Source of the DNA: Nocardioidaceae bacterium
Lineage (GTDB): Bacteria > Actinomycetota > Actinomycetes > Propionibacteriales > Nocardioidaceae
Assembly: GCA_025965395.1 (NCBI GenBank)
Contig: JAOPXA010000289.1
Span: 1-17,650 of the forward strand
Direction: 5' to 3'
Length of the DNA: 17,650 bases
In this document: positions 11,318-17,157 of the stretch, piece by piece
Layout of the letters: each line of letters opens with the position of its first letter
Position numbering within the stretch: position 1 is the first letter of the stretch
Made by a program: the position numbers and the translations under genes
Notes under the pieces: generated by a model
Told to the model about the DNA's origin: nothing
Databases searched by the model: none
Seen by the model: the letters and a program-made list of their open reading frames with translations, nothing else

Positions 11318-11413
11318 CGCCGGCGAGAGAGTATTGCACCACCGAGGAGAGAAATTTGTTCGTATGGACGTGCAGAACTCTCTCGCGAATGGTGAAATAT
11401 TCGCTCGCCGGCG
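11318..11413. repeat. 96-base imperfect inverted repeat between dnaE2 and nrtR
   Basis: The arms 11318-11340 and 11391-11413 match as inverted copies at 20 of 23 positions, the outer ten perfectly (CGCCGGCGAG / CTCGCCGGCG). The right arm ends at the base next to the dnaE2 stop codon. A second perfect pairing, GCGAGAGAGT (11323-11332) with ACTCTCTCGC (11377-11386), competes with it. There is no T tract after either end, so it is not a standard terminator. It could be a factor-dependent terminator, a small inverted-repeat element, or an RNA switch. Confidence 0.6.
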
Positions 11414-14400
11414 TTATTGGAAGTTGCGGGCGGAGTGACGCGCAGGGAGTGCCGTCGCCGCAGCCGGGATGGCCTCGACGAGGTTGTCCATCCGATCGGC
11501 AATGAGGTTGATGGTGCCATCGGAGCTCTCCATGATGCCGCGGATCACCATGCCTGCAGCATTGCGAGCGACCTGGCGATAGCGCCCCCACACCCCGACC
11601 GAGCAGATGACGTTGAGCATGCCGGTCTCGTCCTCGAGGTTGAGGAACGTGACACCAGCGGCCGTCGAGGGCCGCTGGCGATGCGTGATGAGCCCCCCGA
11701 CCCGGACGCGGGTGCCCGACGGCACCGCAGCCAAGTCGGCGACCGAATAGATGTCACGAGCGGTCAACAGACCACGTATGTGTGCCACAGGATGCTCCCC
11801 CGGCGAGATCTTGGTCGCCCACAGGTCCGCCAGAGTCACCTCGACCTCGCTCATACCGGGCAGCGTTGGCGGCGCTGAGTCGACCGACGTGCCCTCGAGT
11901 TGGTCGAGACTCTCAACATAACCGGCATTCCACAAGGCCTGGCGCCGAGAAACCCCAAACCCGTCGAAAGCTCCAGCAGTTGCGAGTGCCTCCATCTGCG
12001 CGACACTCAGCTCGGCGCGGCGCGACACGTCGGCCATGTCGCGGAACGGCTGCCGCTCGCGCTCCGCCACGATGCGCCTTGCGACCTCCTTGCCGAGGCC
12101 CTGGACGGAGTCGAGTCCGAGCCGCACGGCGAAGCTGCCGTCGCGGCGGTGTGCTGGGGTCGGGTCTGGCGTGCCGCGGACGAAGTCAGGCACCGGGTCC
12201 TGAACTCGCTCCACACATGCGTCCCTCCCGGTCGTGCCACCGTCACCCAGCGCCTCCAGATCAGCCTGCGGCTGAGACAGCAGAATGTCGGGGCGCAAGA
12301 TTTCGACCCCGTGCCTGCGCGCATCCGTCGTCAGCGACTGCGGCGAGTAGAACCCCATCGGCTGGGCCCGCAGCAACGACGCCAGGAACACACCCGGATA
12401 GTGCAGCTTGAGCCACGAGCTCGCATAGACAAGCAGCCCGAAGCTGAGCGCATGGCTCTCGGCGAACCCGAAGTTGGCGAAGGCTTCGATCTTGTCGTAG
12501 ATCGAGTCGGCCAGGTCATCGACGATGCCCCGACGCTCCATGCCTTCGTATAGCTTGCCCTTCAACGTCTCGATCTTCTCGATGCCGCGTTTGGATCCCA
12601 TGGCCCGCCGTAGGAGGTCGGCGTCGTCGGCGTTGATGTCACCGACCGCCATGGCCATCTGCATGAGCTGCTCCTGGAAGAGCGGAACGCCCAGCGTGCG
12701 TTTGAGCACCTTCTCGAGATCAGGGTGCGGGTAGGTGACGTCCTCGACACCGGTCTTGCGGCGGATGTAGGGATGCACCGCACCACCCTGGATGGGACCC
12801 GGTCGAATGAGCGCGATCTCGATGACGAGGTCGTAGAGCTTGCGGGGCTGCAGCCGTGGCAGGGTACCGATCTGGGCCCGGCTCTCGACCTGGAAAACCC
12901 CGATCGAGTCGGCGCGACAGAGCATGTCGTAGACGCCGGCCTCCTCCTTCGGGATGGTGGCTAGCGTCCAGCGCTCGCCGAAATGCTGGTCAGCGAGGTT
13001 GAACGCATGGTTGATCGCGCCGAGCATGCCGAGACCGAGTAGGTCGAACTTCACCAAGCCCATGTAGGCGCAATCGTCCTTGTCCCACTGGAGCACCGTG
13101 CGATCATCCATACGGCCACGCTCGATCGGACATACCTCGCCCACCGGGCGCTCGGTCAGGACCATCCCTCCCGAGTGGATGCCGAGGTGCCGTGGCGATC
13201 CGCGGAGCTCCTCGGCGAGGTCGACGACGGCAGGAGGTACGCCATGGGTGCCTGGCTCGATCGAACCCCACCCCTCAACCTCCTTGGACCAGGCATCCTG
13301 CTGTCCGGTGCTGTAGCCGAGCGCTTTGGCGGTGTCGCGGATCGCTGACTTAGGACGGTACGTGATGACGTTGGCGACCTGCGCGGCGTTGCGGCGGCCA
13401 TAGCGCCGGTAGACCTCCTGGATGACCTCCTCACGTCGGTCGGAGTCGAAGTCGACGTCGATGTCGGGCTCCTCCTCGCGTGTGGTGGCGAGAAAGCGTT
13501 CGAAGGGCAGGTCGTAGAAAATCGAGTCGACGGCGGTGATGCCGAGCGCGTAGCAGACCGCCGAGTTGGCCGACGAACCTCGACCTTGGCACAGGATGCC
13601 GCGCTCCTTGGCGAACTGGACCATCTCGTTGACGATGAGGAAATAGCCCGGGAAATCCTTGGCTGCGATGACGTCCAGTTCCTTGTCGAGACGCAGCTGG
13701 GCTTCGTCGCGGTTGTGGGCATAGCGCACGTCGGCGCCGCGGCTGGTGAGCTCGCGCAGCCACGACATCGGCGTGTGGCCCTCGGGGATGTTCTGTTTGG
13801 GCAGTCTTGGGCTGGCCGCCCGCAGGTTGAAGGCGAGCGCATCGGCGATATCGACCGTACGTGCAACAGCACCCGGGAACCGTCGCATCAGCAGCGCCAT
13901 CTCGGCCCCGGAGCGGATGTGTGCCGAGCCGGATGTGGGGGTCCAGCCATCCATTTCGGCGAGGCTGCGACGCGCGCGGACAGCGGACATCGCGGCGGCC
14001 AGCCGGTGGTCCTTGGGCTTGGCGTAGTGGACGTTGTTAGTCGCGACTGTGGGGAGACCGTGCTGGGCGGCGAGGTGCGCGAGAGCGTCGTTGATGGTGC
14101 CATCACGCGGTGAACCATGCTCGTAGAGCTCGACGGCAACGTGGTCGAGCCCGAACAAAGCGGTCAATCGGTCGATCTCCACGGCCGCGGCCTCGGACCC
14201 GCTCGTGGCAAGCGCGCTGCGCACGGCGCCTTTGCGGCATCCGGTCAAGACGAACCAGTGATCACGACCGCGGGCGGACAGTTCCTCGAGGTCATAGACG
14301 GGCCGGCCCTTCTCGTCACCGCGCAGCTGAGCATCGGTGATGGCCGCGGCCAGCCGGTGGTAGCCCTCGACCCCTTGGGCGAGCACCAGAAGGTGATTGC

Positions 14401-14809
14401 CCTCGGGGTCAGCGACACCGTTCTGGGGTCCGCTGAGCCCCAACGACAGCTCCGCTCCGAAGACCGTCTTGAGGCCCTCAGACTCATACTTGGAGGCGAT
14501 CTCGGCGAACCGCGGTGCACCGTAGAAGCCGTCGTGGTCGGTGATCGCGAGACCGTGGAGGCCGACCGTGATGGCTTCTTCGATGAGCTTGTCGGGTCCG
14601 CTCGCCCCGTCGAGGAAGCTGTAGTTGCTGTGCGCATGGAGCTCGGCGTAGGGCACGACTGGTCCCGTCGGTCGAGTGACCGCGCCCTCGTTGTCGTATG
14701 CCTGCCGCTTGCGGGACCAGCCAGGGGCGTCGCCGCCATCGGGGCGGACCTTGCCCGACAAGCGGCGCTCGAGCTCCATCCAGGAGACGCCTGGGTTGTT
14801 GAATCCCAT
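11414..14809 (-). CDS. dnaE2: Error-prone DNA polymerase DnaE2
   Basis: 1131-residue C-family polymerase that extends across lesions with ImuA' and ImuB and causes damage-induced mutagenesis. The start MGFNNPGVSWMELERRLSG is typical of actinobacterial DnaE2. The PHP domain follows (about 54-270: YAELHAHSNYSFLDGAS, LAITDHDGFYG). The palm holds PDIDVDFD with Asp451 and Asp453 as two catalytic carboxylates, and GRGSSANS (409-416). The fingers contain a helix-hairpin-helix-like ALATAGAFDGFG segment later on, and an OB domain sits near the C-terminus (VRVGGLITHRQRPST to IRGIMES). No beta-clamp motif is obvious at its end; in mycobacteria ImuB supplies clamp contact. It lies 95 bases after imuB with a strong Shine-Dalgarno GGAGGTGG (14824-14817) locked into a hairpin. 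No LexA box of its own is seen. Confidence 0.96.
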   Translation of the reverse strand: MGFNNPGVSWMELERRLSGKVRPDGGDAPGWSRKRQAYDNEGAVTRPTGPVVPYAELHAHSNYSFLDGASGPDKLIEEAITVGLHGLAITDHDGFYGAPRFAEIASKYESEGLKTVFGAELSLGLSGPQNGVADPEGNHLLVLAQGVEGYHRLAAAITDAQLRGDEKGRPVYDLEELSARGRDHWFVLTGCRKGAVRSALATSGSEAAAVEIDRLTALFGLDHVAVELYEHGSPRDGTINDALAHLAAQHGLPTVATNNVHYAKPKDHRLAAAMSAVRARRSLAEMDGWTPTSGSAHIRSGAEMALLMRRFPGAVARTVDIADALAFNLRAASPRLPKQNIPEGHTPMSWLRELTSRGADVRYAHNRDEAQLRLDKELDVIAAKDFPGYFLIVNEMVQFAKERGILCQGRGSSANSAVCYALGITAVDSIFYDLPFERFLATTREEEPDIDVDFDSDRREEVIQEVYRRYGRRNAAQVANVITYRPKSAIRDTAKALGYSTGQQDAWSKEVEGWGSIEPGTHGVPPAVVDLAEELRGSPRHLGIHSGGMVLTERPVGEVCPIERGRMDDRTVLQWDKDDCAYMGLVKFDLLGLGMLGAINHAFNLADQHFGERWTLATIPKEEAGVYDMLCRADSIGVFQVESRAQIGTLPRLQPRKLYDLVIEIALIRPGPIQGGAVHPYIRRKTGVEDVTYPHPDLEKVLKRTLGVPLFQEQLMQMAMAVGDINADDADLLRRAMGSKRGIEKIETLKGKLYEGMERRGIVDDLADSIYDKIEAFANFGFAESHALSFGLLVYASSWLKLHYPGVFLASLLRAQPMGFYSPQSLTTDARRHGVEILRPDILLSQPQADLEALGDGGTTGRDACVERVQDPVPDFVRGTPDPTPAHRRDGSFAVRLGLDSVQGLGKEVARRIVAERERQPFRDMADVSRRAELSVAQMEALATAGAFDGFGVSRRQALWNAGYVESLDQLEGTSVDSAPPTLPGMSEVEVTLADLWATKISPGEHPVAHIRGLLTARDIYSVADLAAVPSGTRVRVGGLITHRQRPSTAAGVTFLNLEDETGMLNVICSVGVWGRYRQVARNAAGMVIRGIMESSDGTINLIADRMDNLVEAIPAAATALPARHSARNFQ

Positions 14810-14816
14810 CAGCTCA

Positions 14817-14894
14817 CCACCTCCGCTGAGAGTGACGTTTTGGCTGTCCCGACACGGCGCGTCGCGACCAAAACGTCACTCTCAGCGGAGGAGG
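14817..14894 (-). promoter_or_regulatory. Long perfect stem-loop covering the dnaE2 ribosome binding site
   Basis: Bases 14820-14843 and 14868-14891 are perfect inverted copies (24 bp); after one A-A mismatch, 14817-14818 pair with 14893-14894. The 24-base loop can form a small tip stem, CGAC (14850-14853) with GTCG (14861-14864). The 3' arm in the mRNA contains the dnaE2 Shine-Dalgarno GGAGGTGG (14824-14817); seven of its eight bases are paired. The 5' arm starts about 14 bases after the imuB stop codon. No U tract follows, so this is not an intrinsic terminator. It may be a dispersed palindromic element adopted as a translation control. Confidence 0.75.
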
Positions 14895-14904
14895 AGGGGG
14901 ACAG

Positions 14905-16422
14905 CTAGTCATAGCGGGCCTCGGTCCACCAGCGGCCGTCCTCGACCATCATGAGCCAGGCGCTGCCATCGACCCCGACCACCTGGAAGCGGGCGATGCG
15001 CCGCGCGGCCGCTTCGTCCCACCAGAGCTCGTCGATCGGCCACGGACCCGCCCATGCCGCCACCGGCTGCATTCGGTCGGACCCAGGCGCGCGGAACCGC
15101 ATAGGCTCCCCCGTCACCACGCCGCGCCCGCTGACCCCGATGACCTGGCCCTCCGCGCCGACCACCAGGGCCTCCTGGGGCTCGGCGAACACCGTGGCGG
15201 GAGCTGGCTCGGGAATGCTCCCCGGCCAAGGCAGCCCGCGGGGCCGCAACGCGACCGCTTTGTCGCCCCATGGCACCCACGCCTGACGATCGGCGGGGCC
15301 GCGACCGCCCTGGACGACCGGCGAGACCACCGCTTCGTGACCGACCATGCTCTGGACGCGCGCCAACCCCCGGTCGATGCGCTCGGCGGGGCCACTCCCC
15401 CACAGAGTGTCGGCGTGATTGGCCAACGGCTCGACCGTCTCTGGCACCAGCCGCACGCGGCTGACGGGCTCGCGCGCGGGATCAGCCTGGAGCTGCCACC
15501 GCACCCGGTCGACGCAGTCGGTGGGGCTGAACCAGCGTGGGTGCAACCACGTGCGCAGACCGACCACGGAGCCCTCGCACTCGACCTCGATGCGCAGCGT
15601 GGTGCAGACGAGACCGACGCCGGCCAGACCCGCGACGAACTCCTCGCTGCACCGCCGGAGGCTGAAGGCGATGGACTCGGCGTTGGCCAGCGGAGGCTCG
15701 AAGTCACTGTGCCGCTCGATGTCGGGCGGCGGGGTGCGGCGGGAGATGTCGGCCACCTCGACGCCACGCGCCAGCCGGTGCATCGTGGCGCCCAGGTTTC
15801 CGAACCGCATGTGCACATCGCGCGCAGGTAGTGCCGCAAAGTCGCTGATCGTACGAATGCCCATCCGGCGCAGCAGGCTCACCATGGCCGGGTCGTCGAC
15901 GATCTCGATAGGCAAGGCGGCCAAGAACTGCGCGGACTCCCCCGCCGGCACGACCAGACTGTCCTGCGGGGCGGCGCGGCGGGCGGCCTGCTCGGCGGCA
16001 AAGATCCCGTCGGCGATGCCTGCCCGGCAGTCCCACATGCCCAGCTCGACCAACCGCTCGGCGATGACGGCCGCCGCCTCGGCCTCGCCCCCGTAGAAGC
16101 GAGCCGGGACCCGCAGCGCACACAGCCCGGGCCTGATCGGCGAGACCCCCGGGCTCAGCGCCTCGACCGCAGCCAGCACCGCTTCGAATGCCCGTGCATC
16201 GACGTCAGGGCGGTGGTCGAGCACCACAAGGTCGGGACACCGAGACTGGGCGTCGCGCTGGCGCATGTCACGCCGCACACCGTCACGTCGAGCCGCCGCA
16301 GAGCAGGCAAATACCTGGCCCTTGGCGAAGACTGCGACAGGCATGTGGGCCGGGAGATCCTCATCGTTCATCGCGGCGACCACCGGCCAGTCGGGGCACC
16401 ACAGCACCATGAATCGCGCCAT
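14905..16422 (-). CDS. imuB: ImuB, catalytically dead Y-family polymerase homologue
   Basis: 505-residue hub of the mutasome, linking the beta clamp, ImuA' and DnaE2. It has the Y-family palm/fingers/little-finger layout (about 1-330), but the catalytic acidic residues are missing: VLWCPDWPVVAA (6-17) replaces the first metal site and PGVSPIRPGLCAL (91-103) replaces the SIDE motif. The mycobacterial clamp-binding motif QLPLWG has a counterpart at 337-342, ADTLWG, that keeps LWG but loses Q. The C-terminal region (about 370-505) is tryptophan-rich (WDEAA, WLMMVEDGRWWTEARYD) and is the partner-binding tail in homologues. The ATG overlaps the imuA' stop as TGATG, so translation is coupled. Confidence 0.95.
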   Translation of the reverse strand: MARFMVLWCPDWPVVAAMNDEDLPAHMPVAVFAKGQVFACSAAARRDGVRRDMRQRDAQSRCPDLVVLDHRPDVDARAFEAVLAAVEALSPGVSPIRPGLCALRVPARFYGGEAEAAAVIAERLVELGMWDCRAGIADGIFAAEQAARRAAPQDSLVVPAGESAQFLAALPIEIVDDPAMVSLLRRMGIRTISDFAALPARDVHMRFGNLGATMHRLARGVEVADISRRTPPPDIERHSDFEPPLANAESIAFSLRRCSEEFVAGLAGVGLVCTTLRIEVECEGSVVGLRTWLHPRWFSPTDCVDRVRWQLQADPAREPVSRVRLVPETVEPLANHADTLWGSGPAERIDRGLARVQSMVGHEAVVSPVVQGGRGPADRQAWVPWGDKAVALRPRGLPWPGSIPEPAPATVFAEPQEALVVGAEGQVIGVSGRGVVTGEPMRFRAPGSDRMQPVAAWAGPWPIDELWWDEAAARRIARFQVVGVDGSAWLMMVEDGRWWTEARYD

Positions 16423-17087
16423 CAGCCGACCCTCAGCGCAGTGACGGGAGCAGCGGCAACCGCGGGCTCGATGGCACGGATCCGCAGGGACTCATCGGGC
16501 AGCCACATCTCTCGCATCCGCGCTGGCGCGTTTCCGCGCTGCACCGCGACCGTGCACCGCCGCGCAGCCAGGTGCCCGTGGCCGCGCCCCACGCCCATCC
16601 AAGAAGACTCAACAACCGAGAGACGCGCCTCGCACCGCGGCCACTCTCCCCAGGCAATGAGCGTCGCACCCCGCTGACGAAGCCGCGCACGAAGCCGGGC
16701 AGCCGTACCCTCGCTGACCTGCTTGGCAGGCTTGACCACCACCACGGTCAAGACGTCGAGAAGCGCGGCGGTGACTTCGACCCACTGGTCGCCAGGATCG
16801 GGCACCAGGATCGTGCGCGACAGATCGACTCCCGCAGCGGCGGCGGCCTCGATGCCGAAATCCCGCGAGCCCACGACGGCCGCCCAGGCGCCCGCCTGCG
16901 AGGGGCCAGCCATGAGTGCCATCGCAAGGCTTGCGCTGTCGACGCCGTACGTGGATCCGGTGCGCATCGCGAGCAAACCGGCGAACACGGTATGTGTGTC
17001 GAGCGCATGAGTGGCAGGTGTCCCCTGCATGCGTTGGACGCGCTCTTGAAGCTCTTGGATGCGAAGCGCAGCGGGGGTGGCGACCAT
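16422..17087 (-). CDS. imuA': ImuA', RecA-like mutasome accessory protein
   Basis: 221 residues with a truncated RecA-like fold. A short helical N-terminus (about 1-25, ALRIQELQERVQRMQ, possible coiled coil) is followed by the core with LAMALMAGPSQAGAWAAVVG (54-73), RTILVPDPGDQWVEVTAALL (91-110) and TVVVVKP (114-120). No Walker A (GxxxxGKT) is present; GPSQAGAW occupies its place, so ATP hydrolysis is unlikely. In mycobacteria ImuA' is needed for DnaE2-dependent mutagenesis and binds ImuB. I start it at the ATG at 17087: the frame continues to a GTG at 17144, but that would put the LexA box and the -35 inside the gene. Only GAAGAG precedes the ATG, and the promoter geometry suggests a leaderless message. 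First gene of the imuA'-imuB-dnaE2 operon. Confidence 0.88.
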   Translation of the reverse strand: MVATPAALRIQELQERVQRMQGTPATHALDTHTVFAGLLAMRTGSTYGVDSASLAMALMAGPSQAGAWAAVVGSRDFGIEAAAAAGVDLSRTILVPDPGDQWVEVTAALLDVLTVVVVKPAKQVSEGTAARLRARLRQRGATLIAWGEWPRCEARLSVVESSWMGVGRGHGHLAARRCTVAVQRGNAPARMREMWLPDESLRIRAIEPAVAAAPVTALRVG

Positions 17088-17093
17088 CTCTTC

Positions 17094-17122
17094 ATGATCG
17101 AACACTAGTTCGATCATGTCAA
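17094..17122 (-). promoter_or_regulatory. imuA' promoter
   Basis: On the minus strand, a perfect TTGACA (17122-17117), a 17-base spacer and GATCAT (17099-17094, 4 of 6). Seven bases below the -10 is the A of the imuA' ATG, so the transcript probably begins at the start codon. The spacer is filled by the LexA box. Confidence 0.6.
17098..17113. promoter_or_regulatory. LexA (SOS) box of the mutasome operon
   Basis: TCGAACACTAGTTCGA is a perfect match to TCGAAC-N4-GTTCGA. The symmetry continues outward to 11-bp arms (17093-17103 and 17108-17118). It lies between the -35 and -10, so bound LexA would block polymerase. imuA'/imuB/dnaE2 are known LexA targets in mycobacteria. Confidence 0.92.
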
Positions 17123-17157
17123 TGTGGCGAAGGCAACCGTCCACATGTCGAAAGACA

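Follow-up and report, generated by a model that had tools for sequence, protein, structure and literature searches.

The hairpin upstream of dnaE2 in a Nocardioidaceae genome is probably a copy of a dispersed, REP-like palindrome tied to a nuclease gene bracketed by its own palindrome

The window, i.e., the whole 17,650-nt stretch of DNA analyzed, carries on its minus strand an imuB gene of the IMS family (14905-16422), matching an IMS-family, ImuB-like protein in Pfam, and a dnaE2 gene (11414-14809), matching a DnaE-type polymerase (DNA_pol3_alpha, PHP, and finger domains). The ORF upstream of imuB (16422-17144) has no Pfam match, and near its start lies an SOS-box-like sequence, TCGAACACTAGTTCGA (17098-17113), with 0 mismatches to an SOS-box pattern. 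The 95-nt gap between imuB and dnaE2 (14810-14904) consists largely of an inverted repeat (14820-14891, no strand assigned), which belongs to a dispersed palindromic element: the left arm (14820-14843) comprises CCTCCGC and the core TGAGAGTGACGTTTTGG, the 24-nt loop (14844-14867) includes a directional ACGGCGnGTCGCGA-like motif common to many copies in the genome, and the right arm (14868-14891) is the perfect complement of the left one over 24 bp. When extended to 27 nt (14817-14843 and 14868-14894, 24 nt apart), the arms are 96% complementary. The Shine-Dalgarno (SD) sequence of dnaE2, GGAGGTGG (14824-14817, minus strand), has its GGAGG inside the perfect stem and seven of its eight bases inside the extended one, and the 5' arm in the mRNA begins 13 nt past the imuB stop. 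The initial annotation had described the arms, the mostly palindromic gap, and the SD bases in the stem correctly, and had placed the 5' arm about 14 bases after the stop. It had also proposed folding the transcript and computing SD accessibility: the mRNA strand of the hairpin folds at -79.4 kcal/mol, as against -54.8 +/- 3.9 kcal/mol for shuffled sequences (n = 200, z = -6.3, none as low), and in the predicted fold the SD is buried, its opening costing about 16 kcal/mol. A second, imperfect palindrome (11318-11413), with 46-nt arms, 72% complementarity, and a 4-nt center, is located directly past the dnaE2 stop. This one does not represent the element, and at the loci examined in the same genome it gave only scattered 11-mer matches.

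In the assembly to which the window belongs (G000; 1.8 Mb, 63% complete), the core was found 26 times in forward and 27 times in reverse orientation with up to three mismatches, versus once in each orientation for the reversed control, and the matches are nearly always paired as inverted repeats with a constant offset of 41 bp. Twenty-five copies of the element were read and 24 were aligned, since the remaining one (C153) is cut by a contig end. The copies are 57-72 bp long, their loop is directional, and their core letters are constant beyond what pairing alone accounts for; covariation of the arms among these copies was not above that of shuffled alignments. The copy in the imuB-dnaE2 gap is the top match to the covariance model in this genome. 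No flanking direct repeats of 4 nt or more, such as target-site duplication would leave, were detected at the 23 of the 25 copies tested. In contig C111 (locus L012), two elements 1.6 kb apart (216-287 and 1842-1913) bracket a gene (398-1834) which by sequence is not the nuclease discussed below.

The element also occurs elsewhere in the family. The covariance model built from the own-genome copies matched at least 74 of the 341 genomes of the family (E <= 1e-3, best 12 candidates per genome scored), and a looser core pattern had matches in 17 of 24 chosen genomes, with up to 42 forward matches and a reversed control of 0 except for one match; in genomes from the order's other families, there were 0-2 matches. 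The named matches belong to Aeromicrobium and to Propionibacteriales MAGs. Aeromicrobium has related palindromes, and so do Nocardioides-type relatives, in which the arms are different. Within a lineage, the outer letters of the core remain stable; the inner stems vary between species yet stay paired.

In the own genome and in relatives, a gene encoding a protein of about 330 amino acids lies between two copies of the element. Among its strong homologs (39 matches at E < 1e-75, all scored for their flanks, out of the best six candidates per genome searched), 38 have similar sequences on both flanks, versus one of 1000 random windows, and the nuclease and its palindromes probably form a true module. 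The one exception, L281 in G056, has a flank score of 9.5, and its right flank carries a short ACACGC/GCGTGT-type inverted repeat. A strict hairpin test misses 13 of the 32 nuclease loci tested, and among the weaker homologs, the limits of which were guessed, 4 of 13 score below 24. The protein is predicted to fold into an N-terminal AbiEi-like half and a VSR/I-Bth0305I-like nuclease half related to DUF559. The predicted nuclease combines a VSR/PD-(D/E)XK-type fold with conserved acidic residues of putative catalytic role; Foldseek gave no match at E <= 0.001. The G007 match is split over two frames, and in the alignment the N-terminal part of its row (L204) is out of frame. Judging from the loop motifs read by eye, the bracketing copies are inverted relative to each other in the own genome and at the second copy in G009, and direct at the second copies in G012 and G066. 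G012 and G026 each harbor two nucleases and two element types, every nuclease being bracketed by its own type. More distant DUF559-type genes in G006, G005, and G017 (L266, L268, and L270) have bracketing palindromes of their own with unrelated arms (CCGAGATGTCGG..., CGAGATTTGCTC...), and these brackets suggest that the association may be wider.

The distances between nucleases and those between arms are correlated (Mantel r = 0.36, 0/5000 permutations; 30 loci with arms typed by eye, L226, L234, and seven further strong-homolog loci being left out), although this co-divergence may partly reflect the common descent of both. G048 encodes a second nuclease whose closest counterparts are in G010 and G020, and its arm is nearly the same as theirs; the third nuclease of G336 has its closest counterpart in G337, and the two share an arm. 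In genome group g2, which we infer to be Aeromicrobium, element-model matches occur in 24 of 24 genomes carrying the nuclease (a fragment in the case of G025) as against 6 of 25 genomes without it (p = 1e-8); this comparison deals with presence and absence among the best six nuclease and best 12 element candidates per genome, so that absences are soft. These six genomes are exceptions to the correlation, as is G339 (98% complete, 480 contigs), with 42 forward element matches and no nuclease homolog at E <= 1e-10. Filled and empty sites were also identified: G001 lacks the element-nuclease-element module found in G015 (about 1.16 kb) and has 10 nt between flanks that are about 89% identical, and the imuB-dnaE2 gaps of these two genomes differ by 70 nt containing the element. 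The pair could instead reflect loss, and the module case concerns a single genome pair.

The best-supported reading, which we consider probable, is that the dnaE2 hairpin represents a copy of a dispersed, REP-like palindrome tied to a nuclease bracketed by its own palindrome. Since copies of the repeat are scattered throughout the genome and bracket a probable nuclease gene, the hairpin resembles a mobile repeat that comes with an enzyme of its own more than a switch built for dnaE2. The observations behind this reading, all obtained by computation, are the dispersed family, the bracketing, the co-divergence, the correlated presence, and one filled and one empty site; it is weakened by the bracketing of the non-nuclease gene at L012, the unbracketed homolog in G056, the lack of flanking repeats, the nuclease-free G339, and the lack of arm covariation in the own genome.

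It might be argued instead that the elements are bidirectional terminators, or protectors of mRNA 3' ends, serving convergent genes, the link with the nuclease being secondary. Their positions agree with this idea: by crude gene calls, 18 of the 25 copies have a stop codon at a distance of -15 to 40 bp, and of the 20 copies with two called neighbors, 10 lie in convergent gaps, 9 between codirectional genes, and 1 in a divergent gap (p = 0.001 versus the other gene pairs at the same loci). The hairpins are also predicted to be very stable on both strands. However, the T tract which would become the U tract of an intrinsic terminator is absent, with a mean of 1.3 T in the 8 nt past the right arm and 1.4 on the other strand (24 copies); the core letters are conserved more than pairing would call for, and the bracketing of the nuclease at 38 of 39 loci would be left unexplained. 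We therefore find a primary role of this kind unlikely.

The initial annotation had proposed that the hairpin evolved at dnaE2 to gate the translation of the mutagenic polymerase, to be opened by the translation of imuB or by RNase cleavage. Thirty genomes were searched for dnaE2, and 29 loci were used, including that of the own genome (G053, with only a distant match, was left out). The element precedes dnaE2 at 10 of the 29 loci (G000, G007, G011, G012, G015, G026, G027, G034, G040, and G047), and another type of hairpin does so at four (G002, G006, G009, and G016), which speaks for the proposed gate, as do the burial of the SD in the predicted fold and the pairing kept through compensatory changes. 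On the other hand, at nine loci (G001, G005, G010, G020, G061, G066, G088, G212, and G340) the gap is short, ranging from -1 to 31 nt, and lacks a hairpin, G015 carries the element but has its SD outside the stem, the palindrome in the G009 gap is of the type bracketing the second nuclease of that genome, and some 25 copies of the element occur elsewhere in the own genome. As judged from the own-genome copies and the 29 loci, the structure is neither specific to dnaE2 nor conserved there, and a dedicated gate seems improbable to us. Hairpin control of dnaE2 was not mentioned in the titles or abstract openings among the matches listed in the open-access literature.

The remaining six loci were not classed (G003, G042, G336, G112, G070, and G339, the latter being truncated). 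The 153-nt gap of G003 (L193) contains a palindrome-like stretch of another kind (GGTTTCGATACG ... CGTATCGAGATC), which may represent a further repeat family. At L190 (G336) and L192 (G112), no imuB end was found ahead of dnaE2, and a GAAC-N4-GTTC-type sequence is present just upstream of it. At L184 (G012) and L189 (G026), the element also occurs directly past dnaE2, so that dnaE2 is bracketed by elements in both species. The palindrome type in the G016 gap recurs near a DUF559-type gene of the same genome.

The less specific part of the proposal, namely that the hairpin limits the translation of dnaE2, stands as a possible effect. The predicted cost of opening the SD at the 10 element loci was 16.3, 8.7, 18.4, 15.7, 13.6, 2.7, 13.7, 18.9, 24.6, and 18.4 kcal/mol, as against 1.6-12.1 kcal/mol at 11 loci without a recognized hairpin (the nine short-gap loci, G003, and G042), where it was lower (Mann-Whitney p = 0.003), and it was 6.0-12.5 kcal/mol at the loci with another hairpin type. 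The folding models suggest that the element usually buries the ribosome-binding site, and damped translation is plausible. Since GGAGG (CCTCC at the opposite end) is present at the ends of 17 of the 24 aligned own-genome copies, the GGAGG of the dnaE2 SD may, judging from sequence, be supplied by the element itself. The compensatory changes which the initial annotation had proposed to look for among relatives do occur, the 10 orthologous dnaE2-gap elements showing them in 12 pairs (33 cells; 0/500 shuffles). Since the type of palindrome found there follows the element type of the species, these changes are no proof of selection for dnaE2 control, and turnover of the whole element family would be expected to produce them as well.

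In the mobile-repeat reading, we infer that the palindrome spreads through being bound and cut by the enzyme, the mobility and the enzymatic activity being likewise putative. The enzyme would most likely recognize its own palindrome and help to copy or insert it: the AbiEi-like half might bind it, the VSR-like half might nick or cut, and repair or transposition would copy the palindrome into 3' intergenic gaps, often at gene 3' ends and in convergent gaps. Nuclease-bearing genomes would thus accumulate their own type of palindrome, in some cases to tens of copies. The copy in the dnaE2 gap would fold the SD into its stem, a secondary damping of dnaE2 translation that is probably incidental and, according to the folding models, likely in sign. 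That the protein is instead a regulator or defense protein binding nearby palindromes as AbiEi does, the dispersed copies being its operators, would fit the AbiEi-like N-terminal half and the binding of AbiEi and Rv2827c to inverted repeats in promoters described in PMC7319586, but it is a doubtful alternative given that the copies lie mostly at 3' ends rather than promoters, that the bracket lies on both sides of the gene, and that the protein has a nuclease-like half in which acidic residues are conserved.

More tentatively, and with rather less confidence than we attach to the repeat itself, actinobacterial AbiEi-VSR (DUF559-related) proteins might constitute a second, HUH-independent class of palindrome-spreading enzymes, in which the AbiEi half recognizes its own palindrome, the homing-type nuclease nicks, and repair-driven conversion does the copying. 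If this is so, conversion would also rewrite old sites, which would explain the species-specific palindrome types at imuB-dnaE2. REP-type palindromes have a wide distribution. A non-RAYT enzyme tied to its own palindromes across an actinobacterial family would provide a testable second route for the origin and spread of such repeats, and some of the abundant DUF559-related proteins would gain a suggested role. The case is also a warning that a conserved and covarying hairpin ahead of a gene can be a copy of a repeat and not an evolved riboregulator. No paper among the matches listed in the open-access literature linked DUF559, VSR, or AbiEi proteins with dispersed palindromes, and the association between this nuclease and its palindromes was not found in any of them.

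As regards known systems, the elements resemble MITEs in being short, palindromic, and non-coding and in their link to a longer, enzyme-coding version, but differ from them in the absence of target-site duplication at the 23 own-genome copies tested. Like the CGTC-tagged REPs, they are palindromic dispersed repeats; PMC3733652 describes these as a large class without a dedicated transposase, with 8-9 bp stems, loops mostly of 4-5 nt, and a terminal CGTC motif, whereas in the present elements CGTC is internal to a long stem. The main text of PMC3733652 contains none of the words actinobacteria, Nocardioides, and Streptomyces. Unlike VSR and I-Bth0305I-type homing endonucleases, the nuclease is joined to an AbiEi-like half and its gene lies between palindromes, and unlike AbiEi antitoxins, the protein carries a nuclease-like half. 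In its workings, the system resembles REP/RAYT: according to PMC2817692, RAYT genes are flanked by two REPs, with which they coevolve and correlate in abundance, REPs usually exceed 100 copies per genome, and the RAYT transposase is the only dedicated REP enzyme described there. Here too, the palindromes are dispersed, mainly intergenic, and mostly downstream of genes, the enzyme gene is flanked by two cognate palindromes (except in G056), enzyme and palindrome co-diverge (common descent not being separated), and the presence of the enzyme tracks that of the palindromes, with the exceptions mentioned above. The differences are that the elements occur in tens of copies, measure 57-72 bp versus 20-40 bp, and lack the GTAG tag, and that the nuclease matches DUF559/VSR and AbiEi and not the HUH/Y1 tyrosine transposase, the domain of which (PF01797) was detected in two of 41 genomes (one being G339) and not in the own 63% complete assembly. 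Since the enzyme class, the tag, and the size all differ, we do not file the element under REP/RAYT; we read the element and its nuclease as a two-part system resembling REP/RAYT but based on a different nuclease.
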